A stretch of 64,000 nt of DNA from Ureibacillus thermophilus (lineage in GTDB: Bacteria > Bacillota > Bacilli > Bacillales_A > Planococcaceae), in assembly GCF_004331915.1 (NCBI RefSeq), contig NZ_CP036528.1, forward strand, positions 2,772,273-2,836,272, given 5' to 3'. The notes under the pieces were generated by a model, which was not told the DNA's origin, did not search any database, and saw nothing but the letters and a program-made list of their open reading frames with translations. The number at the start of each line of letters is the position of its first letter. The stretch's first letter is position 1. A program made the position numbers and the translations under genes. Shown here one piece after another: positions 38,483-52,845 of the stretch.

Positions 38483-38626
38483 TCAGAAAACGATCCGTTT
38501 ATTATGTAGTAAAGGTTTTAAAAAATACAAATCTGAATGATCATCTAATTCATGCAATTGTATACTGTATGTATGATCTTTTAGCCAATTGATTTCAGAA
38601 GAAATATTATTTTTGCGGTGAAACAT
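38483..38626 (-). pseudogene. 5' fragment of a second erythromycin esterase gene
   Basis: ATG at 38626 with AAGGGGAT upstream opens a 47-codon frame reading INWLKDHTYSIQLHE and LKPLLHNKRIVF, the N-terminal pattern of erythromycin esterase family proteins just before the catalytic GE(S/A)xH segment. It stops exactly where the IS256 end begins. The rest of the gene is absent from the window. The intact relative lies at 39493-40650. Confidence 0.75.
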
Positions 38627-38717
38627 GTGTTTATCCCCTTGCTTTCATAATATTCCGTAGCATTACTGCCCCAAAGCCTGTAAAACGGCCAGACAAACAT
38701 TTTAAACATTTTTTCAT
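38581..38717 (-). CDS. possible tiny gene after DUF5367 gene
   Basis: Directly after DUF5367, ATGA overlaps its stop and a GGAGGTGA ribosome site is present. Two frames are possible: 38631-38717 (28 residues, MKKCLKC) and 38581-38709 (42 residues, MFKMFVWPFYRLWG, then NATEYYES). The Trp/Tyr-rich second frame looks more like a protein but overlaps the esterase fragment. Neither is recognised. Confidence 0.3.
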
Positions 38718-39094
38718 TTGTCACCTCCCTCTCGCTTTTTTAACGGAAGACCCGTTATCAAAATTAAACTGTACGCCCATAATAACCAAGATCCAAAATA
38801 CCGATCGGATTGCACAGGTAAATTCGTAAACACATCTGGAAAGATCACTAACACAACCGTATCAATGAACATGCCGGGAAGCGCGATAAACATAGCGGCT
38901 TTTAAACGTTCCTCTTTTGTCAAGTCTTTAAGCTTGTACAGCGGATAGGTTAATAAAGCAATGACCGGAACAACAAGCAGATAGGACAAAAGAAGAAGTA
39001 AAGCGTTTTCTGGATGGAAGAAAAAATGGCCAAAAAACCGGAAAATGAGGGTTGCTCCTAACCAGACAAGAAATCCCCAAATAAGAAAATACAC
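38714..39094 (-). CDS. DUF5367 membrane protein
   Basis: This protein of about 126 residues has four hydrophobic helices. The N-terminus reads YFLIWGFLVWLGATLIFRFFG, matching my recollection of the DUF5367 family, and a central YPLYKLKDLTKEERLKAAMF loop is cytoplasmic. Function unknown. GTG at 39094 is chosen because AAAAGGGGT lies eight bases upstream. It is upstream of the truncated esterase on the same strand and may have been its operon partner. Confidence 0.6.
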   Translation of the reverse strand: MYFLIWGFLVWLGATLIFRFFGHFFFHPENALLLLLSYLLVVPVIALLTYPLYKLKDLTKEERLKAAMFIALPGMFIDTVVLVIFPDVFTNLPVQSDRYFGSWLLWAYSLILITGLPLKKREGGDK

Positions 39095-39163
39095 GATCAA
39101 CACCCCTTTTTCTTAAATAAGGTCATAACCGCATTTCACCAACAATTTTGATCCATCATACCT

Positions 39164-39499
39164 TCACAGACGGTCCTTATTCTTTTCGGCAATAAAATCT
39201 TTAATAAAAAACAACGGGTAAATCATTAAATACAAGTTGGCAGCCCACCAAGTGATGTCAAAATCTTTGCGGAAAACCCAAAATGCAATGGCTTGTAAGC
39301 CAGAACAAAAAGTCAAAACAAGGGAAATCAAAGCATAGTTCATCCACGCTGGATTATTTTTATTATATTGATATATGCTGTAAAGACCCGTTATAGAAAT
39401 AAAAATATCTAACGGAAAAAATGAACCTCTCCCACCTTCATTCTGTTTAGAGGAAGGGAGACTTCTCGGGAAAAATGTTAAATTACTTTTCTCTATTCT
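39164..39499 (-). pseudogene. 3' fragment of a membrane protein gene
   Basis: The minus strand is open for 111 codons without a usable start in the first half. It encodes three hydrophobic segments (FPLDIFISITGLYSIYQ, MNYALISLVLTFCSG, ANLYLMIYPLFFIKDFI) and ends KNKDRL. It begins abruptly beside the intact esterase stop codon, so the 5' part was probably lost. Family unknown. Confidence 0.5.
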
Positions 39500-40650
39500 T
39501 CAACGTCAAAGTAAGCCGGGGAAACATATTTAAAAAATAAAATCCCATCATATTGTTGTGCAGGTACAAAGGAAGTAGGCATTCCCCCGCCTTCATAGGC
39601 CCGCCACTTTTTCTGTGCCCAGTTTCCATTGCACTGAATAAAACTATTTTGATAAGGGGAATGGTCAAGAAGGCTTTCCAAATGTTTTTTATTCGTTTTT
39701 TTTATTGGATATTCCTTACCTGTATAATCCAACATTTTGCCTTCCTTTGCATACAACCCCAATACAAAACTTTTCTCCTTAATCGTTTGGGAGAGGTTTT
39801 CCACAAACGATTTATAGGCAGACAGGCGCTTGGCGGAAGTATTTTTGCTAATATGCATGTTATGTGCCCAAATGATAAATTTTTCATTTGGGTATATTTC
39901 CCGTACTAAAAATTCTAGGTTTTTTGCCATTAATGCATCCCGATACTCAAAAAGTTTCGAGAAACTTTTTTCTAAAGTTACTTTCAAATAATTTACTCTA
40001 TTTTCCATCGTACGGAGGACAATTTTATAAATCTTGCTGTCCGGAAAACAATGCTGTTTGAGTTCCTCAATCAATTCCATGCCCTTACTTTCCATCTCTT
40101 CCCTTATATTTTGGCGCATTGAACGCTTGATTTTCCGTTTATCGGCTGCAATCAAAACCTCGATCGCCCGCTTTTCAAAATCGACAAACTTCTGTTTGGT
40201 CGGACCCGTTAAATAAGACTCGAGGAATTCCGAAAACAAATTCTCCTTTTTTCCTTGATAAACATCCACACCAGTAAAATACAGCGGCCGCTCCTGCTTC
40301 ATTTTTTTCATATAGTCAAATAATCCGAGGACAAATTCATTTTGCCACACACGCCCAATGGTACCCGCCATAAAACGTTTAGAATCAAGTTGATCAGACA
40401 GATAATCGCCAATCATACATGGCCCCAATTCGCTTTCAAAGGCAAGTACATGAAACCCCAATTCTTCATGAAGATATTTAATCAGGCTTACTTTTGCTAG
40501 ACTGTATTCTTTGACGCAATGGCTGCTCTCCCCAAGGAAGACAAAGCGTTTATGTTTCAAAATCGGCTGAAGAAACTCAAAATGATAGCGGCCCATATCC
40601 CCTATATTGATACTTTGATTTTTGACTTCGTTTACAAATAAAGTAGTCAT
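39493..40650 (-). CDS. erythromycin esterase family protein
   Basis: This 385-residue protein belongs to the Ere/succinoglycan-biosynthesis esterase family, whose members hydrolyse macrolide lactones. Residues typical of the active site are seen in FLGESSHCVKEY (Glu and His, near 45) and AFESELG (near 80), with WAHNMHISKN near 275. Many family members are not proven resistance enzymes. ATG with AAGGTGA upstream. The bases before its start resemble the comQ 5' region, so it may now be driven by a com-derived promoter. Confidence 0.8.
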   Translation of the reverse strand: MTTLFVNEVKNQSINIGDMGRYHFEFLQPILKHKRFVFLGESSHCVKEYSLAKVSLIKYLHEELGFHVLAFESELGPCMIGDYLSDQLDSKRFMAGTIGRVWQNEFVLGLFDYMKKMKQERPLYFTGVDVYQGKKENLFSEFLESYLTGPTKQKFVDFEKRAIEVLIAADKRKIKRSMRQNIREEMESKGMELIEELKQHCFPDSKIYKIVLRTMENRVNYLKVTLEKSFSKLFEYRDALMAKNLEFLVREIYPNEKFIIWAHNMHISKNTSAKRLSAYKSFVENLSQTIKEKSFVLGLYAKEGKMLDYTGKEYPIKKTNKKHLESLLDHSPYQNSFIQCNGNWAQKKWRAYEGGGMPTSFVPAQQYDGILFFKYVSPAYFDVEE

Positions 40651-40659
40651 TTGAATTTC

Positions 40660-41040
40660 ACCTTATCTCTTTTTCCATGATTTCACCAACATCCTACACA
40701 AATATTTCCAATAGATAAATTACAACAAAATTCGTGAAATTCCTTCTTCAAACTAATCGAAATTTAAAATAAAAATCTATTTATGATCCCTTGTTCTTTC
40801 ATCGCCAACTTATGTCGGAACACCGCCATTTTTGGCGGAATATCGACACGAAATGGCAGACTTTAGGAAAAGCGGAGCTGAGATCACCCAACAGCAATGG
40901 GCAAATGTTCTTTGCCCGCTTCAAAGTTTTACTTAAATGCAAAAAAAAAAAAAAAAAGAAAATGTCCTCACTGATCAGATGAAGGCGTTGACAACATATT
41001 AAATTATGGAATAGTGACTAATTGCTTCCATCTATCTACC
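40660..41040. other. relic of a second com locus (comQ start joined to comA end)
   Basis: Bases 40663-40770 align with the comQ start and upstream region at 51036-51145, sharing for example TTCCTTCTTCAAA and AAATATTTCCA. Bases 40780-41035 align with the comA downstream region and 3' end at 46890-47065, sharing TTTATGATCCCTTGTTC, CGACACGAAATGGC and GATGAAGGCGTT. The comA-like end is in pieces (KQLVTIP then a stop, then TPSSDQ). The order comQ-start then comA-end is what the junction of two tandem com loci would give. A 17-base A-run lies at 40941-40957. Confidence 0.7.
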
Positions 41041-41113
41041 CTTTGCAAGTTTAGTTGTTAAAGATAAGCATAGTTTGATCTTTTTAAACATTAATGAATA
41101 ATGAAGTTACCAC

Positions 41114-42847
41114 TCATATATCGACTTCTCTACTATGACTTAATGAAAACTTTTTAGACAAGAAAGGTAACGATAAACTCGAAAGGAAACACAAAATAAT
41201 CCCGCTAAAAAATGCTTTTGCCATGGATTTTGCTACATACTCTTTAGATATGTCTTCTATTTGTTTTTTTATGTTAGCAACGTTTTGGTCTATATTGATC
41301 AACTGTTGCTTCACTTGTTCTTTGATTTTCTTTTGCATTTCTGGAGACATTGGTGTTCCCTTTGGAATCTTCGCCAGTGTCTCTTTTTCAATATTTTTCG
41401 CAAGTAATTGCTTACTTTCCTCATCTAGCTCCAACACTTTATCGTTATTTTTTTCCTCAAAAAAAGTATCTCTTTGTTTCATTAAAACTTCCTGAATAGA
41501 ATTTTTTACTTCTTCAGGAATGTTTGATTTTTTTACGATCATTACTCCTTCATCGACTACGTTAGCGGAATAATGATTTAGAAAGCTTAATGTTAAAGAC
41601 ACAAACAAAGCTACTCCAACCGCTCCTCCCATATTCCGAACCATCGCAAAAATACCTGAACTTAAAGAAATTTGAGTTTGAGAAACGGCGGCCGTGCATA
41701 CTGTAACACTGGTAATCATAATAATCCCTAAACCCGTCCCTAAAATAGCAAGAAATGAAATTAAATTTAAAACACTTACATCCGTATCAATATTTATAAG
41801 CAAAATCAAACCAATAACACTTATTATATACCCTATTAACATAGGAATAAGATAGCCAATTTTATCGATTACTCTCCCAATAATTGGTGCTACGATGAGT
41901 ATAACTCCGGAAAGGGGGGTAATTGCAAATGAAGCTTCTAATGTACTGAATTCCTTAACTCTAATGAGAAATATAGGAAGTAAAATTAATGTTCCCATTA
42001 ATAATATACCGCCGAGAAAATTTGAAACTAATCCTGAAACATACAAACGATTCTTAAAAATGGAAAAATCGAGAATAGGGTTTTTTACTTTTGTTTCAAC
42101 AAAAAGAAATAGGGCTCCGCTAACAACACTAATTATAAAATAAAGAAAGATTTTATGAGATGTCCATCCAATTTCTTCCCCTTGCAAAATGGCATACGTA
42201 AGAAAAAACAAACTCAAGCTCATCAACAAAATTCCCAATGGATCGAGTTTAAATTTATGAATGGGCTCATTTTGTACTCGAATAGCAAGATATATGAACG
42301 GAAATGCCAATAACACAATGGGGACATTAATATAAAACACCCATCTCCAGTGAATATACTCTGTAATAAGTCCTCCTAAGCTCGGGCCGATAGCAACCGC
42401 CATAGCACCTACAGCTCCCCAAATTCCCATTGCTAATCCCATTTTTTCTGGAGGAACAGCTGTTCTAACTAGCATCATACTTGTAGGGATGACCATTGCT
42501 CCGCCTATTCCTTGCAAAATTCGAAAAATAATAAGAGAATCTACCGTCGGTGCAATTCCACATAAAAACGAGCTAACCGCAAAAATGATGACTCCCCACA
42601 AAAAAGTGCGAACACGCCCTAACATATCAGCCATTTTACCGAGAGTAACTAATAATACTGCAAGTGTAAGAACAAACCCGTTTATGATCCATGAGGCTTT
42701 ACTTAGGTCAATTTTGTAATCATCAATAATATTAGGAATAGCGATATTTACTACAGTACTATCTAAAAACACAAGAAAAAGCCCAATGCTTACTGCAAAC
42801 ACTTGTTTTAATCCTCTGTGCCGTTGTTCGTTTACAGTTTCAGTCAT
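41114..42847 (-). CDS. DHA2-family (14-TM) MFS drug/lipid exporter
   Basis: This 577-residue major facilitator exporter resembles EmrB/QacA. Motif A appears as GKMADMLGRVRTFLWG near residue 70 and motif C as a glycine-rich AMAVAIGPSLGGLI near 150. Fourteen helices are predictable. Between the last two helices there is an unusual hydrophilic stretch of about 110 residues rich in Lys, Glu and Gln (415-530). Proteins of this group export drugs, dyes or lipids by proton antiport. It follows the truncated acyl-CoA dehydrogenase by 26 bases on the same strand, and so belongs to the cassette below comA. Confidence 0.88.
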   Translation of the reverse strand: MTETVNEQRHRGLKQVFAVSIGLFLVFLDSTVVNIAIPNIIDDYKIDLSKASWIINGFVLTLAVLLVTLGKMADMLGRVRTFLWGVIIFAVSSFLCGIAPTVDSLIIFRILQGIGGAMVIPTSMMLVRTAVPPEKMGLAMGIWGAVGAMAVAIGPSLGGLITEYIHWRWVFYINVPIVLLAFPFIYLAIRVQNEPIHKFKLDPLGILLMSLSLFFLTYAILQGEEIGWTSHKIFLYFIISVVSGALFLFVETKVKNPILDFSIFKNRLYVSGLVSNFLGGILLMGTLILLPIFLIRVKEFSTLEASFAITPLSGVILIVAPIIGRVIDKIGYLIPMLIGYIISVIGLILLINIDTDVSVLNLISFLAILGTGLGIIMITSVTVCTAAVSQTQISLSSGIFAMVRNMGGAVGVALFVSLTLSFLNHYSANVVDEGVMIVKKSNIPEEVKNSIQEVLMKQRDTFFEEKNNDKVLELDEESKQLLAKNIEKETLAKIPKGTPMSPEMQKKIKEQVKQQLINIDQNVANIKKQIEDISKEYVAKSMAKAFFSGIILCFLSSLSLPFLSKKFSLSHSREVDI

Positions 42848-42873
42848 ATATCCTGATCCTCCTATTTTATTGT

Positions 42874-43446
42874 TTAAATGCTAGCCGGAATATCCAATAT
42901 TATTTTCCCAATAAGTTCCTTTAACAACTCTGGAGTTGGTCCTAACACTGTCCCTGCTTTACTGTCCCTTATATATCTTTCGAGAGGAGAGCGGGCGGAA
43001 TAGGCATGACCTCCACAAACCTTCAAACACAAATTCGCCAACTTAAGCACAGCTTCACAAGCAATTATTTTAATTTCTAACAAAGTTATCATATCTAGCT
43101 TTCCTTTCTCCATTTGACAAGCCATATATTCCAAGGATCGTTCTGCCCGGTCGCATTCAATCTTCATTTCCGCAATAATTTGTTGTATACTTTGAAAAGA
43201 TGCTAGATTCTTTTCGTTATGACTATAGAATCGATTTTTTACATACTCTACTGATTCACGATAAATAGCTTTTGCTATACCAACTTGTAAAGCTGAAATC
43301 CCTAACTGTCCCATAGGTAACAATTTTTCGCGAGAAATTTTAAATCCGTCTCCTTCATTACCGATTAAAGCTTTGCTTTCTATTCGACAATCCTTCATTT
43401 CTATAGGGGCGCTATTATTGCCACGTAACCCCATTAATTTCGGCAT
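42874..43446 (-). CDS. acyl-CoA dehydrogenase, C-terminal half only
   Basis: This 190-residue protein aligns with the middle and C-terminal helical domains of acyl-CoA dehydrogenases: GLRGNNSAPIEMKDCRIE, LIGNEGDGFKISREKL, and AVLKLANLCLKVCGGHAYSARSPLERYIRDSKAGTV in two parts. The usual N-terminal helical domain of about 200 residues, needed for FAD and substrate binding, is absent and not found in another frame. AAAGGAGG lies 13 bases before the ATG. It is either a truncated gene or a stand-alone partner subunit. Confidence 0.75.
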   Translation of the reverse strand: MPKLMGLRGNNSAPIEMKDCRIESKALIGNEGDGFKISREKLLPMGQLGISALQVGIAKAIYRESVEYVKNRFYSHNEKNLASFQSIQQIIAEMKIECDRAERSLEYMACQMEKGKLDMITLLEIKIIACEAVLKLANLCLKVCGGHAYSARSPLERYIRDSKAGTVLGPTPELLKELIGKIILDIPASI

Positions 43447-43496
43447 TTCTCCAACATATCCTCCTTTCTAACACTGATCATATTATACAAAAAAAT

Positions 43497-43545
43497 TGTC
43501 AAGTGACATTCATCTCCCACTTATAGAAGTGGGAGACTTCTGTCA
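43497..43545 (-). mobile_element. orphan IS200/IS605-type right end
   Basis: On the minus strand AGAAGTCTCCCACTTCTATA then AGTGGGAGATGAATGTCAC contains the perfect 9-bp stem CTCCCACTT/AAGTGGGAG (43514-43535). This resembles the right-end hairpin and guide-RNA 3' end of TnpB-bearing IS605/IS1341 elements as I remember it. No tnpA or tnpB is present nearby. Confidence 0.45.
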
Positions 43546-43649
43546 AAGTTTACGTTTAATTCGTTAAAAATTTGTAAATGATACAATAAGCTTATTATTC
43601 CGGCATAAAACTTATTCATTTCGACGCTTTTTGCTTTGGCGTATTCTTT

Positions 43650-45827
43650 TTAGTATTCATGAAAAACGTTTGCTCGTTGAAGCTTTTTTAAAAACTTAGG
43701 TGCCCACCAATTTATATCTCCCATGAGCTTCATTAACGATGGAACAAGCAATAATCGAACAACTGTAGCATCAATAAAAATAGCCAGTGCTATTCCTAAC
43801 CCCATTTGTTTGACGGGAACAATACCTGTAAACGCAAATGCTCCTGTTACGATAATCATAATCAGCGCTGCAAATGTAATCACCCTGCTAGTCGAGGATA
43901 AGCCTTCGATTGTAGCTCTATCATTGTCATTCGTCTTCAAGTAGATTTCTTGAATTTTAGACAACAGGAAAACTTCATAATCCATGGATAAACCGAAGAC
44001 AACTCCAAAAACGAAGACCGGAATCATAAGGGCGATAGCGGGAACCGGTTCAAAGCCAAAATGTCCTTCTTGAAAAATCCATACTAAAAGCCCAAATGAA
44101 GCCATTAAACTCATGATATTCATCACAATAGCTTTTAAAGGAATAACAATCGAACGAAATGCTAGAACTAAAATAATAAATGTAGATACAAAAACTATCA
44201 ATAAACTATACTTGAAATTTTCGGAGATTTCATCATGAATTTCTTGGTTAAACTTTGGTAAACCTCCCAATAACACTTCAATCTGACCGTCATTTTTTTC
44301 CCAGCGCTTCACAAACTCTTTTGCTTCTTCCGAATCAAAATCAACATTTAAATGAACAGTAAAAATCGTTTGATTACCTTTCACTAATTTATTAATGAAA
44401 GGAGCTATTTTTTTCTTCGTTTCATCATTGTGCAGAAGCATATAAAGTTGTTGGTAATGTAAATCTCCCATGATTGAAAAGATAGAATCAACACTTGCCA
44501 CGATCTCTTCCTTCTTTAAATCTTGCAACAAATTTTCCAGCTGTCTAAGAGATTCTTTTTCAAGTATATCATTTTCTTTCGTGCGAACGATCATTAGCAC
44601 TTCCGAATGATTTTCACCCAAAAATTCTTTTTCGTAAATTTCGTACGCTATCCTAGTATCATATTCCTTTGGAAGCGCTGTAGCATCAGGGATGCTCAGT
44701 TTCATATTAGAAATAGGGATTGAACAGAAAAGCAAAATTCCAAAGCTAATCAACGACAATATCCCTGCTCGATTCATGACAAACTTAGAAAATCGATGCC
44801 ATACACCCTCTCCGCTTCCTTTAATCTCGAGAACCTGTAATTTGTTAATATTTCTTCCTATTACAGATAAAAGAGCAGGCAGAAATGTCAGCGCTATGAC
44901 TAATGAGAAGATGACAATCACTGCTCCGCTGATGGCCACTGTCTTAAAAATTTCAACATCAATAACTAACATGCTAGCTAACCCTAAAATCACGCATAAA
45001 GCCGAAAATAAGATAGCTCTCCCCGCAGTTTGCGCTGTAACAACAATTGCTTCCTTTACATCCCTAGATTTTAGCTCTTCCCGAAAACGACTGATAAATA
45101 ACAAAGCAAAATCAATTCCTAAAGCCAATCCAATCATCGGAACAATATTCAATGTAAAGATGGATAACTCTTTCTGCTGACCGATGAAATACAAAGTTCC
45201 CATCGAACAACCAACAGCAAGTAAGCCAATCACAATCGGAACAGATGCCGCGACAAAACTCCCAAATGCGATTAATAAAACAATTAAAGCAATCGGGATT
45301 CCAATCATTTCTGCTTTCTTCAAATCTTCTTGACTTGCCTTATTCATATCCTCATTAATCAATGCCGGTCCTGTCAAACGAATATGAATTCCATCCTCAC
45401 TTTTTAACTTCATCTTTAACTCATTGAGTATATCCCCCATATCGTTAAATTCCCGATCAAATCCCAAAACAGCAAATGCTACACTGCCTTTTAACTGCCC
45501 TTCTTGATCATAAGGAGATATAAGACTAACTAATCCCTCTACATTTTGAACACTTTCCAGCTTTTTTAGTATAAACTGCCTAAACGCCTCCTCCTTTACT
45601 TTTTCTTCCTTTTCGAATAAAACAATAACGCTATTATTAGGAAGATTAAATTCCTCTTTCGCTATTTTTTGGACTTTTGCATAAGAACCTTTCATCTCAA
45701 ACCCATCGCCACTGAGCACATCCGGGAGTTTAAATGCATATAAAATAAGTAAAAATGAAGCGATTCCCCATAAAGCTAATATAATCCAGCGATAGACATA
45801 TGTCATCTTACCTAAGCTTTTAAACAT
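43650..45827 (-). CDS. MMPL/RND-family transporter (YdfJ-like)
   Basis: This 725-residue protein has the two-repeat MMPL layout: helix 1, a large extracytoplasmic loop (about 35-165), five or six helices, a second loop (about 355-520) and a further six helices. IGLALGIDFALLFISRFREEL and VFGVVFGLSMDYEVFLLSKIQEIY are the diagnostic helix-4 type motifs with the proton-relay aspartates. The family exports lipids and hydrophobic compounds. ATG at 45827 has a GGATGTGAT ribosome site; an earlier GTG has none. It follows the KAS III gene by 39 bases, suggesting that the synthase product is exported. Confidence 0.92.
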   Translation of the reverse strand: MFKSLGKMTYVYRWIILALWGIASFLLILYAFKLPDVLSGDGFEMKGSYAKVQKIAKEEFNLPNNSVIVLFEKEEKVKEEAFRQFILKKLESVQNVEGLVSLISPYDQEGQLKGSVAFAVLGFDREFNDMGDILNELKMKLKSEDGIHIRLTGPALINEDMNKASQEDLKKAEMIGIPIALIVLLIAFGSFVAASVPIVIGLLAVGCSMGTLYFIGQQKELSIFTLNIVPMIGLALGIDFALLFISRFREELKSRDVKEAIVVTAQTAGRAILFSALCVILGLASMLVIDVEIFKTVAISGAVIVIFSLVIALTFLPALLSVIGRNINKLQVLEIKGSGEGVWHRFSKFVMNRAGILSLISFGILLFCSIPISNMKLSIPDATALPKEYDTRIAYEIYEKEFLGENHSEVLMIVRTKENDILEKESLRQLENLLQDLKKEEIVASVDSIFSIMGDLHYQQLYMLLHNDETKKKIAPFINKLVKGNQTIFTVHLNVDFDSEEAKEFVKRWEKNDGQIEVLLGGLPKFNQEIHDEISENFKYSLLIVFVSTFIILVLAFRSIVIPLKAIVMNIMSLMASFGLLVWIFQEGHFGFEPVPAIALMIPVFVFGVVFGLSMDYEVFLLSKIQEIYLKTNDNDRATIEGLSSTSRVITFAALIMIIVTGAFAFTGIVPVKQMGLGIALAIFIDATVVRLLLVPSLMKLMGDINWWAPKFLKKLQRANVFHEY

Positions 45828-45866
45828 GAATATCATCACATCCAAAAAAATATTCACTGTATTGTT

Positions 45867-46862
45867 TTAATATGTTAAGGCTACACACCCTATAGATAAA
45901 CCGGCGGAAGTTCCGAATAATAACACTAAATCTCCTCTATTAATCTTGTTATCTTCTATATAGTCAAACAATAACATTGGGAGAGAAGCTGCAATACAGT
46001 TCCCATGTGTAGAAATATGAGAGGCAATTTGTTCTGAATGAAATCCAAACTTTCTAAAAATGTCTATTCCATGCTTGCTTGTTTGATGAGGGAATAAATA
46101 TTTAACATCACTTTGACATATACCACTTTCAGAAAAAAAATCTTGAAAAAAATCAGGAAGCAAACGAACTGCATACCTAAACACTTTTCTGCCATCCATC
46201 TGAAACAAATTATCTTCCATTCTCGTATTTGGATCATTAGGGTGTCTTAACGTACCTCCTCCTTTCACACATGTCAAATTTGCCCCTGAACCATAAGTTT
46301 GCATTTTGAAATAATGAAGAACGCTTTTTTCATCTTTTGCAGATTTGGTGACAATCGCAGCAGCAGCCCCATCTCCAAACAGAGCTCTTACCTCATTAGA
46401 AGTTTTTGGCAATGTTGGACTTGGAGCATCTGAACTGATGATTAAGATGCAATTGTAGACTTGATTATGAATAAGATTAGCCGCCACAAATAAAGCTAAT
46501 CCGAAACTATAACACGTCGTATCAACATCAAAACACGGAATCCCTGAATCGCCCAAACCTAATTCTCGCTGAAATAAACTAGCTCCGCACGGAATGGCCT
46601 GTAATGGAGAACCATTCGCACCAATTATACAATCAATCTGCTCCGGATCAATTCCGCTATTTTGGATTGCCTGCTTAGCAGCTTTTACACCTAATGTTAA
46701 CGCATTTTCTCCATTTTCAAAATCAACATAATGTCTAGACTCAATACCTGTTGCCTTAACAATCCAACCGCTCGTAACATTCATTTTTTCTTCTAATTCT
46801 TCACTTTTTACTTTCAGTGAACCAACGGCTTTTCCCATTCCAGCAATTTTTACTTTAAACAT
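45867..46862 (-). CDS. 3-oxoacyl-ACP synthase III-like enzyme
   Basis: This 331-residue thiolase-fold enzyme has the full KAS III triad: Cys117 in DTTCYSFGLAL, His259 in FPHQTSKHG and Asn288 in THGNCIAAS. The LFGDGAAAAIV motif near 161 is typical. It condenses acyl thioesters, but the loops differ from housekeeping FabH, so a specialised lipid, polyene or secondary-metabolite role is likely. ATG at 46862 with GGGAGGGGATAAAA upstream. It lies downstream of comA on the same strand, separated by 138 bases that hold a hairpin, and heads an operon with the MMPL transporter. Confidence 0.88.
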   Translation of the reverse strand: MFKVKIAGMGKAVGSLKVKSEELEEKMNVTSGWIVKATGIESRHYVDFENGENALTLGVKAAKQAIQNSGIDPEQIDCIIGANGSPLQAIPCGASLFQRELGLGDSGIPCFDVDTTCYSFGLALFVAANLIHNQVYNCILIISSDAPSPTLPKTSNEVRALFGDGAAAAIVTKSAKDEKSVLHYFKMQTYGSGANLTCVKGGGTLRHPNDPNTRMEDNLFQMDGRKVFRYAVRLLPDFFQDFFSESGICQSDVKYLFPHQTSKHGIDIFRKFGFHSEQIASHISTHGNCIAASLPMLLFDYIEDNKINRGDLVLLFGTSAGLSIGCVALTY

Positions 46863-46934
46863 TTTTATCCCCTCCCTATACTCAATTATATTTATGATCC
46901 CTTGTTCCTTCACCGCCAACATCGTATCGGAACC

Positions 46935-46972
46935 CCGCCATTTTTTGACGGAGTACCGACACGAAATGGCGG
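46935..46972 (-). terminator. hairpin downstream of comA
   Basis: CCGCCATTT pairs with AAATGGCGG around a 20-base loop. A related hairpin lies in the com relic near 40823-40855. The U-run on the minus strand is weak, so some read-through into the KAS III gene is possible. Confidence 0.5.
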
Positions 46973-47000
46973 AGTCCTGAATAAAAAAGAGAAAACGCCC

Positions 47001-47672
47001 TCACCGATCCGATGAAGGCGTTAACAACATATGAAGCTCTGGAATGAGTCCTAATTGTTTTGCTTTTTCCACGGCTTCTATTCGTGAAGATACGTGTAGC
47101 TTGATGAAGATACGCGATAGGTGTCTTTCTACACTTCGCTGGCTTATATGATGTTTTTTGGCAATGTCTTTATTACATAAACCGTTGGCGACTTCCATTA
47201 ATATTTCTTGCTCAAGCTGGCTCAGCGCAACATGTTCTTCACTTTCTGCAATCTTGGTCTTTACTTCGCAACGATGCAGCTGACGCAGTAAATGCACAGG
47301 AATGACAACTTCATCTCTTAATGCACAGCGAATCGCTGTAATCAATTGCTCGCTTGTCCCCGTTTTACTGACAAAACCTGTAATGCCTGATTCAATCAAA
47401 TAATTAAAAAAAGGAGCAACATCATATCCGGTATATATGACAATTTTCGCATTCGGTTGTTTTTGAAGAATTCGCTTACTTAATTCGGTGCCGCTCATAT
47501 CCGGCATACGCCAATCAAGCAAAAACACATCATATGTACGTTGTTCCATCATCTGTTCCGCTTCTGTGCCAGATGTAACAAGTTCTACTTGAAAATCTTG
47601 TTCGTTCTCCAGCATGTTCTTTGTCCCTTCACCAACAAGGCGATGATCATCGACAATTAAAATATGAATCAT
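47001..47672 (-). CDS. comA: quorum-sensing response regulator ComA
   Basis: This 223-residue NarL/LuxR-type regulator has a receiver domain (HILIVDDHRLVGEG at the start, phospho-acceptor Asp in FLLDWRMPDMSG near 54, lysine in GFVSKTGT near 104) and a C-terminal helix-turn-helix (ANGLCNKDIAKKHHISQRSVERHLSRIF). Phosphorylated by ComP, it activates competence and secondary-metabolite promoters. ATG at 47672 has AAAGGGGAC upstream and lies 22 bases after the comP stop. The operon order comQ-comX-comP-comA is the classical one. Confidence 0.93.
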   Translation of the reverse strand: MIHILIVDDHRLVGEGTKNMLENEQDFQVELVTSGTEAEQMMEQRTYDVFLLDWRMPDMSGTELSKRILQKQPNAKIVIYTGYDVAPFFNYLIESGITGFVSKTGTSEQLITAIRCALRDEVVIPVHLLRQLHRCEVKTKIAESEEHVALSQLEQEILMEVANGLCNKDIAKKHHISQRSVERHLSRIFIKLHVSSRIEAVEKAKQLGLIPELHMLLTPSSDR

Positions 47673-47694
47673 ACAAGTAAGTCCCCTTTCATGT

Positions 47695-49959
47695 TCATAA
47701 CGGGATTGTGACAATGATATGTAGCCCATCTCCAAGTTGTGACGTCATCTCGCATGTTCCACTCAAGCTTTCAACGCGCTCTTTTATGCCAAACAAACCA
47801 AGCTTGCCATCACAATGATTTAATTTTTCCATATCTATACCTATGCCATTGTCAACGTAATGAAGTTGAATTTCCTCATTTCGAGCCTCCAATGTGAGTT
47901 GAATATGCGATGCCTGCGAATGTTTCAGCGCATTGTTTAATAATTCTTGGATAATCCGATAAATAGCAAGCTCCCGTTCTTCCTCCAATTTGGCTGATAA
48001 ATGAACATTCCATTCTACTTTTATATTCGCACGTAATTGGAATCGTTGGATTAACTGTACGATCGCTTCCTTTAATCCGATTTGACTCAAAAATGGCGGT
48101 CTTAATTCATGGCATATCTCCCTTGTTACATCAATCATATCTACGATTTCTTCTTCGATATTGTTTAGCTGCTTTTTCATTTCTTCCATACGCATATTTT
48201 GAAAACGCAAGCTCTCCACTTTCCGTTTTAAAACAATTAAATCTTGAAGAATCGTATCGTGCAGATCAATGGCTAACTTACTTCTTTCCTTTTCTGACCA
48301 TTTGAAGATCAAACGAGTGAGCCAGACAGAATTGTTTCTTTCCTTTACATTGTCTAACTCTTTTATTAAATCTTCTACTTTTGACATATTTTCAATCGTG
48401 ATGCTGGCATAATAAACAATGGTGGATAACCAATCTTTTTGTTCTGCCCGAAATGGAATGGGATGTTTCTTTTTTCCTATTAATAGTAAAGGACTTTGGC
48501 GGAACGAGCCTACAAAGACCGCAAACAAACGCTTATTTTCAATGATTTTTCCAATCGAAAGTGGTTGACCATCCATCTTTTTGATTAACTTCATCCACTC
48601 TTTTTCATCGCAATGAAAAGGTGCTTGCATATTTTTGGCCTCTAATTGTACAAAAGCCAGATTCTCTATATCTAATACTTCTCTCACTTCTTTTTCCATG
48701 CATCGGATCACTTCTTGCATGTTTTTCTGTTTTTTTAATGTTTCGCCGATTCGATATATACTTTCTTGGTAAAAGTCTTTTTGTACATATAACTTAGCTC
48801 TTAATGTTCGATCGAAACATTCTTTTAAATAGAGAGCAAGGATATTTATTATATAAATTAGTAAAAACAACAAAACGAATTCAACAAGTCTCCACGCTTC
48901 ATTGACAAATTTGGCATAAAGCAATGTAATAAGAAAAGCTGGGAGGAATGATAAAAAAGCATAGTACACAAAGCGATTGATGGAAAACTGCAATCGAAAT
49001 AACCGATCTGTACAAATTAAATAAAGAAAGACAGATGGCAACACAAAAAGCGAAGTAACGGTTAATTCAGCTGGTAGTACCCATTTTCCAATGATTAGAA
49101 CCGGGAGACTATAAAATAAAACAAATGGTGCGGCAGATAGCCCAATGGCTAAAAGCAAACCTTTGACCGTATTTTGCTGTTCATCTTTTTTAAGATAAAC
49201 TAATCCTTTTCCTAACAAAGCCAGAATGATGACCATGTTGATAAAAAATGTAGCCAATAGCACTTCCGCTTCACTTATCGAACGAAACGATAAAGATATG
49301 AGTGAGGCAACGAACATCACTAAGTTAAACCCATAAAGGGAAAAGACGATTTTTTTCGCGAACCACACTTTCTTTTCTTTTTCAAAATAATGATGAACGA
49401 AGTGCAAAAAGACGGCAGGCAATATTAAAAATATACCGTTAAACATTTGCCTTCCAAACAGTGCATATTTCGCTGATAAGCTGGCACTTATATAACAAAG
49501 CCCTATCAATAATAAAAAGTAAATAAGCACGGTGGCCAATTTGTCATCCGGCCGCAGACGAAGCAAAAAAATGCTTAAACTAACAGCGAATAGAAAAAAA
49601 CCCATCGGCAAGGCGATATAATACAGCCATTGTTCCGTTCCATGCGATTTATAGTCAACCGTCAATGTTTGGATTTGATTTTCTCTCTGAATCGTTATTG
49701 TTTTCGCTTGTTCAATTGTTTTGTATTTCCGGACAGTAAAATGGGAGAGCGGGGGCTTTCCGTCCACTTTCAGCACTTGATCATTAATATGAATGCCATT
49801 TTTTTTTGCCCAACCAAACTCGTAAATATCGCTTACAACAATATCACCGTTCTTATTTTTCTCTACATCCATGCCGATCAATGGATGCTTCACATTGAAA
49901 ATGGTTAAATATAGTGCCACAATCGCAGCTACGCTTATCACGGTAATCGTTCGTCTCAT
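47695..49959 (-). CDS. comP: membrane histidine kinase ComP
   Basis: This 754-residue sensor kinase has an N-terminal membrane helix, a PDZ-like periplasmic segment (DIYEFGWAKKNGIHINDQV, near 45-63), about eight more helices to residue 380, and a HisKA_3 kinase domain. The phospho-acceptor histidine is in AIDLHDTILQDL near 565; the HATPase N-box is ELLNNALKHSQAS and the G-box DNGIGID. The multi-helix N-terminus is the receptor for the ComX pheromone. ATG lies six bases after the comX stop. Confidence 0.93.
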   Translation of the reverse strand: MRRTITVISVAAIVALYLTIFNVKHPLIGMDVEKNKNGDIVVSDIYEFGWAKKNGIHINDQVLKVDGKPPLSHFTVRKYKTIEQAKTITIQRENQIQTLTVDYKSHGTEQWLYYIALPMGFFLFAVSLSIFLLRLRPDDKLATVLIYFLLLIGLCYISASLSAKYALFGRQMFNGIFLILPAVFLHFVHHYFEKEKKVWFAKKIVFSLYGFNLVMFVASLISLSFRSISEAEVLLATFFINMVIILALLGKGLVYLKKDEQQNTVKGLLLAIGLSAAPFVLFYSLPVLIIGKWVLPAELTVTSLFVLPSVFLYLICTDRLFRLQFSINRFVYYAFLSFLPAFLITLLYAKFVNEAWRLVEFVLLFLLIYIINILALYLKECFDRTLRAKLYVQKDFYQESIYRIGETLKKQKNMQEVIRCMEKEVREVLDIENLAFVQLEAKNMQAPFHCDEKEWMKLIKKMDGQPLSIGKIIENKRLFAVFVGSFRQSPLLLIGKKKHPIPFRAEQKDWLSTIVYYASITIENMSKVEDLIKELDNVKERNNSVWLTRLIFKWSEKERSKLAIDLHDTILQDLIVLKRKVESLRFQNMRMEEMKKQLNNIEEEIVDMIDVTREICHELRPPFLSQIGLKEAIVQLIQRFQLRANIKVEWNVHLSAKLEEERELAIYRIIQELLNNALKHSQASHIQLTLEARNEEIQLHYVDNGIGIDMEKLNHCDGKLGLFGIKERVESLSGTCEMTSQLGDGLHIIVTIPL

Positions 49960-49965
49960 CGCTCT

Positions 49966-50121
49966 CTACTTCCAATATCCAAGGGGGGTAACGGATTGGC
50001 TAAATACCTTTATTATCGCTTGAACTTCGAGTTCATCTAAACCTACTAAGCTTACTGTACCACTTTTTAATTTTTCAATAACCTCTGGATTTTCCATTAA
50101 AAAACGAATCATTTCTTGCAT
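49966..50121 (-). CDS. comX: ComX pheromone precursor
   Basis: This 51-residue precursor begins MQEMIRFLMENPEVIEKLKS and ends TPLGYWK. The tryptophan second from the C-terminus is the residue expected to be isoprenylated by ComQ; the mature pheromone would be the last 6-10 residues. ATG at 50121 has GGAGGGAG upstream. It sits between comQ (17 bases upstream) and comP (6 bases downstream), exactly as in Bacillus. The C-terminal sequence defines a pherotype unlike the 168-type, by memory. Confidence 0.9.
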   Translation of the reverse strand: MQEMIRFLMENPEVIEKLKSGTVSLVGLDELEVQAIIKVFSQSVTPLGYWK

Positions 50122-50138
50122 ATTTACTCCCTCCGAAA

Positions 50139-51053
50139 TTATAAAATTATCATTTTTAGTGCGGATTTGTACCTATCGTTTACATCCAGTTTCTCGATTT
50201 CTTGCAAAGCCTTTTCCTTGTAAATCTGGCTCATCACTTTTGCATAGTAAAACGCTCCTTCCTGTTCCATTTGCTGAATCACTTTTTCCTTTTGGACATA
50301 AAGCTCATTGTAATCAACATGATTGCTAAAATACTGTTTCAGTAAGTTATCCCGTTTACTTGTTAGCATGTACAAAATCGGAAGCGACTTCTTCTTCGCT
50401 TTGATGTCGTTCTTCTCATCCCAACGATACAACGCATCCATATCATTGTCGATTTGTGCAGCAATTCCTATATCATTGGCATACTTTTCAATGATGACAG
50501 TGTTTTTTTCAGCATCTGCTAATGCAGTTCCGACGAAACACGCCATTGCTACTAAAGAACCTGATTTTTTCTTCACCATTTCTATATACTCCGCTTCCGT
50601 CTGTATGTCATATGTGACATCCATATGCTGCCCGTTTACGCTTTGAAGCAATCGAGATGAAATATATAACTGTGCCTTTGCTTTTTTATGATCATCAATA
50701 AGTAAATCCACAATAGCTTTTTGTCCTGCTAACAATAACCCTATGGCTATATGAAGTGAAGTTGTAAGAGGTGCTTTGTTCCACGTGGTTTCCAAGCTGT
50801 CTTGATCAACGAGGTCATCGAGCATATCTCCCGCCAACATCATCAGTTCTACAGACGCTGCGATTCGTTCAGTTTCCTTCATGTTTTCGGAAAATATCTG
50901 ATAATGCACACCAGCTAAGCGGCCGAACAAAAAGTCGCTTTGTTTTGTGTGCTCCTCTATTGATGTCAATACCGACTCTTTTAAAGACGGTACGGAAAAA
51001 GATGCTGTAACGATCTCTTTCATTTGCATCTTCACTGCTTCTTTTTCGATCAT
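50139..51053 (-). CDS. comQ: ComX isoprenyl transferase ComQ
   Basis: This 304-residue polyprenyl-synthase-like enzyme attaches an isoprenoid to the tryptophan of ComX and is needed for pheromone release. The first aspartate motif DDLVDQD lies at 79-85 and the second, IDNDMDAL, near residue 200. ATG at 51053 is favoured because AAGGTG lies about eight bases upstream; the earlier ATG at 51071 has no ribosome site. First gene of the comQXPA operon. Confidence 0.92.
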   Translation of the reverse strand: MIEKEAVKMQMKEIVTASFSVPSLKESVLTSIEEHTKQSDFLFGRLAGVHYQIFSENMKETERIAASVELMMLAGDMLDDLVDQDSLETTWNKAPLTTSLHIAIGLLLAGQKAIVDLLIDDHKKAKAQLYISSRLLQSVNGQHMDVTYDIQTEAEYIEMVKKKSGSLVAMACFVGTALADAEKNTVIIEKYANDIGIAAQIDNDMDALYRWDEKNDIKAKKKSLPILYMLTSKRDNLLKQYFSNHVDYNELYVQKEKVIQQMEQEGAFYYAKVMSQIYKEKALQEIEKLDVNDRYKSALKMIIL

Positions 51054-51180
51054 TTCAGCAACACCTTGCATAAAATAAATATTTCCAAATAGGTAAATTT
51101 CAACAAGATTTATAAAATTCCTTCTTCAAATCAGTGTAATTTTCAAAACAATAACCCCTTTGCTTTGACAAAGAGGGATT
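51054..51180 (-). promoter_or_regulatory. comQ upstream region with hairpin
   Basis: This AT-rich region is repeated in degenerate form at 40663-40770. CCCTTTG and CAAAGAGGG at about 51155-51177 form a stem whose second arm contains the AGAGGG that could serve a divergent micro-ORF. Confidence 0.4.
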
Positions 51181-51184
51181 CACT

Positions 51185-51244
51185 ATGTATTATCTGATGA
51201 ACATGTTTTATCCAACTAACATATTTTGGGATTGGTGGAAGTAG
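51185..51244 (+). CDS. Trp-rich 19-residue micro-ORF divergent from comQ
   Basis: ATG at 51185 with AGAGGG seven bases upstream reads MYYLMNMFYPTNIFWDWWK then TAG. The Trp-rich end recalls the aromatic C-terminus of ComX-type pheromones. It may be a chance frame or part of an old insertion sequence end. Confidence 0.3.
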   Translation: MYYLMNMFYPTNIFWDWWK

Positions 51245-51359
51245 CAGAAAATGGCGAAGAGTGAGTTTTTTTACAACACGGTTTCTAAAGAATATTTATG
51301 TTTGAGAGGTTGATTTCAAAAGGCATCCTCATTTTATAAGAAGCCACCATGTGCTCATG

Positions 51360-51787
51360 AAATTTTTAGCTTCACATCGGAGCGGGCATGGCATCGCTTT
51401 GTGGTCGAAAACCTATTACAGAAAAGGCATTCCCTGAGCGTTCTCGATACCATCGTTGTTGTCGCTCGCTACGTTGGATGATTAAATGGATTCGACATCA
51501 ATTCGCAAACTTGGACAATCTCACGCGTATACCATTGTAGACAGTTTACCGATCTGTGCCATTATACACGTACTTCACGTATAAAACGGTTTCGAGATGT
51601 GGCGGATATCAGATATCGTGCTTTCAAGAAGATGTTCTTCTATGGATTTAAGATGCACATCCAAATTGCCAAACGAACGTTGGTGTTATGTCAAGAAAAT
51701 AGACACAAAAAAATAGAGATTTTTTCTACCGCGCTTCGCTTGCTGGCCTTGTCAGGGAATGAAGGTGTTATCCTCTTTCATTTCTGA
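51360..51787 (+). pseudogene. IS982-type transposase remnant
   Basis: Pieces of an IS982-like transposase occur in three frames: AFPERSRYHRCCRSLRWMIKW near 51430, HAYTIVDSLPICA near 51515, and RYRAFKKMFFYGFKMHIQIAK near 51610-51680. At least two frameshifts break it. The remainder of the element is decayed. Confidence 0.65.
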
Positions 51788-51789
51788 CA

Positions 51790-52220
51790 AGGAAATAGAT
51801 AATTAATACGCCTTTTCATACATCACTGGAGATGGATATCGATTGTCGGAATGGATTCGTTTGTAGTTGTAAAAACACTCAATGTACTCAAATACACTTA
51901 CTTTGGCTTTTTTAGGATGGAGTTTTCCTATTCTAGGTTACGAATTCGCTTTTGTACTTCTCGCAATGCTTGCTCTTTCAACCGGAGGTTTCCACTTCTA
52001 ACAAAACTGTGAACAGAATCTTATACCCATCTATGCAATGTTTTTGGCGATAAATCGATCTACCGTGCTGTTGCAGCGATAGTGTTGCCTTCTTCTACAA
52101 CTAACTTAACGGCATGAAGTTTAAATTCTTTATCAAAACGTTTTCCCACGTTGGACACTCCCTTAATGTAATTAGTTTTATTATAACCTTTCTAGGTCGT
52201 GTCCACTTTTTAGACTAACA
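51790..52220 (-). pseudogene. IS3-family element remnant
   Basis: On the minus strand the OrfA start MGKRFDKEFKLHAVKLVVEEG (in pieces, with in-frame stops) lies at about 52150 and a coiled-coil piece (KEQALREVQKRIRNLE) follows. The frame then jumps to the OrfB end (VFEYIECFYNYKRIHS, then YPSPVMYEKA). The middle of OrfB is deleted. AGTCTAAAAAGTGGACACGA at about 52196-52215 looks like the terminal repeat. Confidence 0.7.
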
Positions 52221-52386
52221 TCAAATTTTCATAATGTGTTAAAATACTTTCATAAGGGGATTTGATTTGGGATGATTATACCAACATGCCATCAGTGGCA
52301 AGTACTAAGTTAAACCTCTCTTTTTTTAATTTTATTTCATTGATAGTAATCTTTTTATTAACAAATCTTGAGAGTTTTAAATTATT

Positions 52387-52845
52387 TTATTTAGATGTAG
52401 AAAACGGAATTTTATGAATCCAACGATAAAGTATATCTAAGATAAACTTTCCTAAAGGTATTGTAATAGGTAGAAGTAGTGTACCCAGCAAAAGCATAAA
52501 AGGCACAACCTCTTCGACATTCACTGTTTCTAAGCTACCTAATACTAAAATATATCCGATCAATAATCCAACAGAATTTGCAATTATACTAATAATGAAT
52601 ACTGAAATAGCCGAAACTTTCCATCTATGTCTGTTAGATAATGTAGATTTTTTTGAAAAATAGAAACCAACGTATCCAAAGGTAGGGATGATAGCAATTA
52701 AATAAGCTATATAAGTCCATCGACTACCAAATACATTGTAAAGACCGCCATATAAACCACTCAATCCATTAATACAAATGAAAGGAACTACAAAAGCTGT
52801 AATCACTCCAACTATAATACCTTTAATTATACTGATAAATATCAA
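52387..52845 (-). CDS. four-helix membrane protein, unknown
   Basis: This 152-residue protein has four hydrophobic helices (about 5-27, 44-64, 78-100, 112-135) separated by short charged loops (FSKKSTLSNRHRWK). TTG start with GGGAGGAAG seven bases upstream. No family recognised. It lies between IS remnants and the sce7726 gene, on AT-rich DNA. Confidence 0.6.
   Translation of the reverse strand: MIFISIIKGIIVGVITAFVVPFICINGLSGLYGGLYNVFGSRWTYIAYLIAIIPTFGYVGFYFSKKSTLSNRHRWKVSAISVFIISIIANSVGLLIGYILVLGSLETVNVEEVVPFMLLLGTLLLPITIPLGKFILDILYRWIHKIPFSTSK

Follow-up and report, generated by a model that had tools for sequence, protein, structure and literature searches.

A 64,000-nucleotide (nt) stretch of the Ureibacillus thermophilus genome, referred to here as the window (contig NZ_CP036528.1, positions 2,772,273 to 2,836,272), carries an intact comQXPA quorum-sensing locus and, on the same strand, a short segment at 40651-41027 that looks like the joined ends of another. 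Read 5' to 3', the minus strand of the window shows comQ, comX, comP, comA, a KAS III-like gene, an MMPL gene, an acyl-CoA dehydrogenase fragment, an MFS gene, the short segment (the relic) and an esterase-like gene. Did a second com locus once stand here, and how was it related to the genes around it? The relic is probably the remnant of a second comQXPA that was once in tandem with the intact copy. Units consisting of comQXPA, a promoter-like module called P and cargo genes would stand in tandem, swap their cargo and decay.

The relic and the intact com locus

The relic runs from a comA end through a flank to a comQ start, all matching the intact com locus with 77-89% identity. A repeat search within the window showed four collinear direct-repeat pairs linking the two. 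The pair 40947-41027 and 46980-47060 (81 nt, 79%) covers the comA 3' end and terminator. Two pairs lie in the comA 3' flank, 40829-40860 with 46942-46973 (32 nt, 88%) and 40773-40809 with 46884-46920 (37 nt, 89%). The fourth, 40705-40769 with 51083-51147 (65 nt, 77%), comes from the region upstream of comQ, and gapped alignment (94 identities, 23 mismatches, 9 gaps) extends this block into the first comQ codons, up to the start of the esterase-like gene near 40650.

The comA end, the flank and the comQ block reach local scores of 48, 58 and 58, whereas 1000 dinucleotide shuffles of each gave at most 15, 18 and 22. Across the whole genome (one contig of 3,017,325 bases) the strong DNA matches to the relic, itself apart, all fall in the com locus, at three sites with E values of 1e-19, 2e-14 and 6e-14, and the next best among the 41 matches listed has an E value of 0.03. 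The comQ leader has the relic as its sole match. The original prediction had seen here a remnant of a second com locus, with a comA end, flank and comQ start in the order expected at the junction of two tandem loci, and had looked for two collinear blocks above 70% identity. Remnant and order are both borne out, by four collinear pairs and by block scores far beyond anything in the shuffles.

All three parts of the relic are on the minus strand. The comA piece (40947-41027) retains about 20 codons, an in-frame stop (TAA, the frame being judged by eye from the alignment) and the terminator. A copy of P follows at 40769-40863, scoring 66 bits with the model described below. The repeats and gapped alignments place the comQ leader and first ~15 codons at 40651-40770, and this piece runs as far as the ribosome-binding site that serves the esterase-like gene (39493-40650). 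Unlike in the intact locus, about 80 extra nt (40864-40946) separate the comA terminator from P, as seen from repeat spacing and alignment. By eye, this extra stretch has a long A/T tract and a small GC hairpin.

The middle part carries less weight than the two ends. It had been said that the same sequence at unrelated loci would count against a com relic, and this does apply to the best-conserved block, 40769-40863. Because P occurs at many places, some of them in genomes without comA, the flank block alone is no proof. The comA and comQ pieces do prove the relic.

In the intact locus (51071-47001), comQ, comX, comP and comA adjoin on one strand in the expected order according to the open reading frames and Pfam. 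An intact comQ (50139-51071) encodes the polyprenyl transferase (polyprenyl_synt, E 1e-16). The comX gene (49966-50121; Pfam ComX, E 4e-18) encodes a pheromone precursor of 51 residues that ends in GYWK, with a tryptophan close to the C-terminus. The histidine kinase ComP has 754 residues (47695-49959; HisKA_3 and HATPase_c) and the response regulator ComA 223 (47001-47672; Response_reg and GerE). The genes, their order and their common strand are those of B. subtilis comQXPA. The stretch 51150-52400 showed no com-like remnants in a tblastx comparison with the com loci collected (no match at E <= 1e-4).

A census of comQXPA-like loci names Geobacillus and Anoxybacillus among the species that have them (PMC4008528). 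Here com copies occur in tandem and are accompanied by cargo and remnants, whereas the words tandem, duplicat- and downstream are absent from the main text of that census (PMC4008528).

The promoter-like module P

The intact P (46879-46975, minus strand, 80 bits) is located in front of the KAS III-like gene. It consists of an inverted-repeat box, a downstream half-site, an 18-nt spacer and a TATAAT at about 46885-46890. In B. subtilis, promoters that depend on ComA carry two inverted TTGCGG hexamers separated by 4 nt and, on the downstream side and closer to the promoter, additional half-sites (PMC4797271). P resembles this layout in its inverted-repeat box and downstream half-site, with a hexamer that reads TGGCGG, and the match of its box to the inverted hexamers and 4-nt spacer is imperfect. 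P is promoter-like, and it may be controlled by ComA. The spacer of the relic P is also 18 nt long and differs by one change from that of the window's own intact P. Among 49 copies, this spacer type is otherwise found in U. terrenus and genome G091 only.

These copies were collected with a sequence-only model, R1, built from 19 copies including the relic. R1 was run on 11 genomes and on the 41 genomes of a related family, that of genome G061. At E <= 1e-6 it gave 46 hits in 22 of the 41 family genomes, which together with one copy in U. terrenus and the two in the window make up the 49. The U. thermophilus genome has two real copies, the intact one and the relic; a third listed match (20 bits) is an overlap with the intact copy on the other strand. 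The idea that P is a repeat dispersed over this genome was therefore rejected. The pattern of half-site and -10 fits 40 of the 49 copies, 38 with exactly 18 nt and two with 19, the other nine being misfits, in a count made without a shuffle control. A ComA-type site within three mismatches is present in 14 of 22 aligned modules (in one, L034a, at another place).

P tends to keep company with comA. P is present in each of the 12 family genomes that carry comA, as against 10 of the 29 that lack it (Fisher p = 9e-5, kinship ignored), and in those 12 most P copies sit in com islands. Directly upstream of the 49 copies a full-length comA is found 15 times and a comA fragment six times, and 28 copies have neither within 200 nt. 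These classes were assigned by tblastn for 47 copies (14, 5 and 28), the window adding one full-length comA and one fragment. One of the 28 stands after a comX and a comP stub (genome G092). Short comA pieces escape tblastn, the window relic itself having been detected only at the DNA level. By eye, many of 33 selected P copies have a short comA-terminator tail upstream.

Relatives of the junction and the origin of the probable second copy

Some relatives carry com copies in tandem or a second com copy: an Anoxybacillus amylolyticus plasmid, G092 and, apparently, U. terrenus. The plasmid, pDSM15939_1 (NZ_CP015439.1; 1221-36367), carries two comQXPA loci in tandem on one strand with the same ComX accession. 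They share 98.8% and 99.1% DNA identity over two long aligned com stretches, and the comP of one copy is split by an IS66 element. One com copy is followed by a thiocillin-type cluster and the other by an skf cluster, and beyond the skf cluster lies a comA remnant (residues 141-223) with P. Counting the window, there are thus two cases of cargo placed between a com locus and a comA remnant.

In G092 the order is comQ (residues 9-90), esterase gene, comQ (261-297), comX, comP stub and P, with a complete comQXPA following after about 8.4 kb. Between P and the full locus are genes for a carrier protein, a phosphopantetheinyl transferase, ketosynthases and an MMPL protein. The esterase gene of U. 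terrenus has 99.7% DNA identity to the window over 39506-40664. Upstream of it, on contig G020:C28, is a decayed comQ, not the relic of the window; residues 77-120 are matched by tblastn, followed by a weaker match. At their ends this contig and C26, on which the remainder of the com locus lies, have 127 bases of comQ in common, all identical, and this is read here as an assembly fork between two com copies. The sequence upstream of the fork could not be located. A further, more diverged comQ-like piece of U. terrenus is located near an insertion-sequence end (G020:C21, 252-558). The comQ-esterase junctions of U. terrenus and G092 are 85% identical over 429 nt. Since relatives have larger comQ remnants at the same esterase gene, the window relic appears to be the shorter leftover of a similar arrangement, one that has kept the comA end and P on its upstream side.

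Where the second copy came from is less clear than that it was there. One route is that a second com unit arrived with the esterase genes from a Geobacillus-like lineage and then decayed, and this is given somewhat less than an even chance. The likeness of the U. terrenus and G092 junctions points this way, as does the relic comQ start, which scores 74.3 against the G092 comQ and 55.7 against the intact comQ of the window. At discriminating comQ sites the relic agrees with G092 at 15, with its own neighbour at seven and with neither at two, a difference that is not significant (p = 0.13) on the ~120 nt of comQ left for judging. The relic P spacer, being of the Ureibacillus type, speaks against this route. 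The comA end favors no source, as three copies, the window's own included, tie for the top score.

The other route, duplication of the window's own comQXPA in place followed by loss of one copy, is held to be somewhat less likely still. It would account for the relic P spacer, which is so nearly that of the intact P and so rare elsewhere, but leaves the relic comQ nearer to G092 by both score and site count. The original prediction went further, proposing duplication and then replacement of one copy, or capture of the cassette by recombination. Its second com locus stands; the duplication is unproven at 15 sites to seven. The replacement is not supported, because in A. tengchongensis and U. 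terrenus, too, the KAS III-like and MMPL genes come directly behind comA. These two genes look like resident cargo that need not have replaced a com copy, and their reading as a foreign insert was rejected on the same ground.

It is improbable that no second com locus was ever here and that the repeats are a terminator-promoter element held in common, which spread on its own. P does occur in many positions, frequently with no more of comA than a short terminator tail ahead of it, and in ten genomes without comA, but the relic also has ~20 comA codons up to the stop and a comQ leader with its first codons, and in U. terrenus and G092 bigger pieces of comQ accompany this esterase gene.

Several observations weigh against the tandem-remnant explanation or against a working P within it. 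First, the ancestry of the relic points two ways, its P spacer being of the Ureibacillus type and its comQ start nearest to G092, and the second U. terrenus comQ copy is deduced across a contig break. Second, the -10 of the relic P is weakened, TAGATT (about 40774-40779) taking the place of TATAAT. Of the conserved columns, 6 of 50 have changed in the relic P, and the dead comA end, with 9 changed out of 47, is not significantly worse preserved (p = 0.40). Third, both P copies of the window have mismatches to TTGCGG-N4-CCGCAA at 3 of 12 positions, and eight of the 22 aligned modules lack a ComA-type site within three mismatches, so that recognition of P by ComA is an inference. Fourth, there are the 28 of 49 copies with no comA piece detected by tblastn just upstream, and the ten genomes with P and no comA at a cut-off of E <= 1e-40 (G067, G068, G070, G072, G073, G076, G077, G081, G088 and G091). 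In having P without comA, these genomes are unlike the situation of the ComA-dependent promoters described for B. subtilis (PMC4797271). They are the chief evidence for two possibilities: another regulator may bind P in them, or P may linger unused. G067 and G088 retain comA fragments, and G081 has a 53% comA-like piece.

Cargo genes and a possible array of quorum-sensing cassettes

The names given to the cargo genes are what their relatives are called, and nothing more. All are on the minus strand. The first cargo gene of the intact unit is the KAS III-like gene (45867-46862; ACP_syn_III), and its counterpart behind comA in A. tengchongensis shares 92% amino acid identity with it. The MMPL-family transporter (43650-45857; MMPL, E 7e-83) has 86% identity to the protein encoded at the same place in that species. 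In U. terrenus, where the pair also directly follows comA, the KAS III gene appears frame-broken. Genome G088, which has no full comA, has P ahead of a KAS III piece (residues 1-186). More distant KAS III genes, of ~40% identity, occur in five same-genus genomes; within 4-kb loci only the KAS III matches window genes (5 of 5), and the neighbors are other genes in the three of the five genomes where they were viewed. The acyl-CoA dehydrogenase fragment (42874-43446), which has the C-terminal domain only (Acyl-CoA_dh_1), and the DHA2/EmrB-type MFS exporter (41114-42847; MFS_1, TIGR00711 above cut-off) are without a DNA match in U. terrenus and could have been added later.

Beyond the relic, the first gene is the erythromycin-esterase-like gene (39493-40650; Erythro_esteras, E 3e-26). 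NCBIfam erythromycin-esterase models match it weakly, far below their cut-offs (best 36 of 750 bits), and a search of plasmids for the esterase gave 12 records, every one below 60% identity. It is followed by a DUF5367 membrane protein gene (38714-39103; DUF5367), a recurrent cargo that has a 97% relative directly after P in G091. Next is the N-terminal stub of a second esterase-like gene (38484-38626, an open reading frame), cut off beside an insertion sequence. G092 and G. zalihae have a 407-residue esterase-like gene (Erythro_esteras) after DUF5367, and by eye the stub matches both.

Under the tandem-remnant explanation, the module of these thermophilic bacilli would begin with comQXPA and continue with P and an operon of cargo genes for competition or secondary metabolites. 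The intact unit of the window would be comQXPA-P-KAS III-MMPL, with the acyl-CoA dehydrogenase fragment and the MFS gene behind it. Its neighbor would have been reduced to the comA end, P and the comQ start and fused directly to the esterase-like gene, which in relatives lies within a decayed comQ or immediately behind one. At high cell density ComX would activate ComP and ComA, and ComA would bind P and induce the KAS III-MMPL operon. Through the relic P the esterase gene may still be under ComA control, with a leader of ~117 nt from the start expected from the -10 if that promoter is used; alternatively, the relic may be inert. Cargo would be exchanged by homologous recombination between the repeated comA-end and P sequences.

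A broader picture, offered tentatively, is that of quorum-sensing cassette arrays, in which the repeated comA end and P would serve both as quorum switch and as recombination point, the window holding one intact and one decayed unit. With P being part of the recombination point, an arriving competition operon would come under quorum control at once. Polymorphic-toxin and integron cassette arrays are similar in having interchangeable cargo beside a repeated sequence, and orphan remnants; they differ in that the repeated part here is a promoter and the end of a regulator gene.

Among the best-ranked open-licence papers, no tandem comQXPA-cargo array was found. ComX genes near class II lanthipeptide clusters have been described in 22 genomes (PMC12715929), and so the neighborhood of com and bacteriocin genes as such is already published.

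The relic is real and correctly ordered, and was partly misread; its value is as a pointer to comQXPA-P-cargo arrays in thermophilic bacilli. If the array model is true, one quorum-sensing system would gain varied weapons without evolving new regulation, among them thiocillin-type and skf-type clusters, an Ntox8 toxin, lipid-type synthases and esterase-like genes. P would then also be a sequence tag for candidate ComX-controlled competition genes in uncharacterised genomes.

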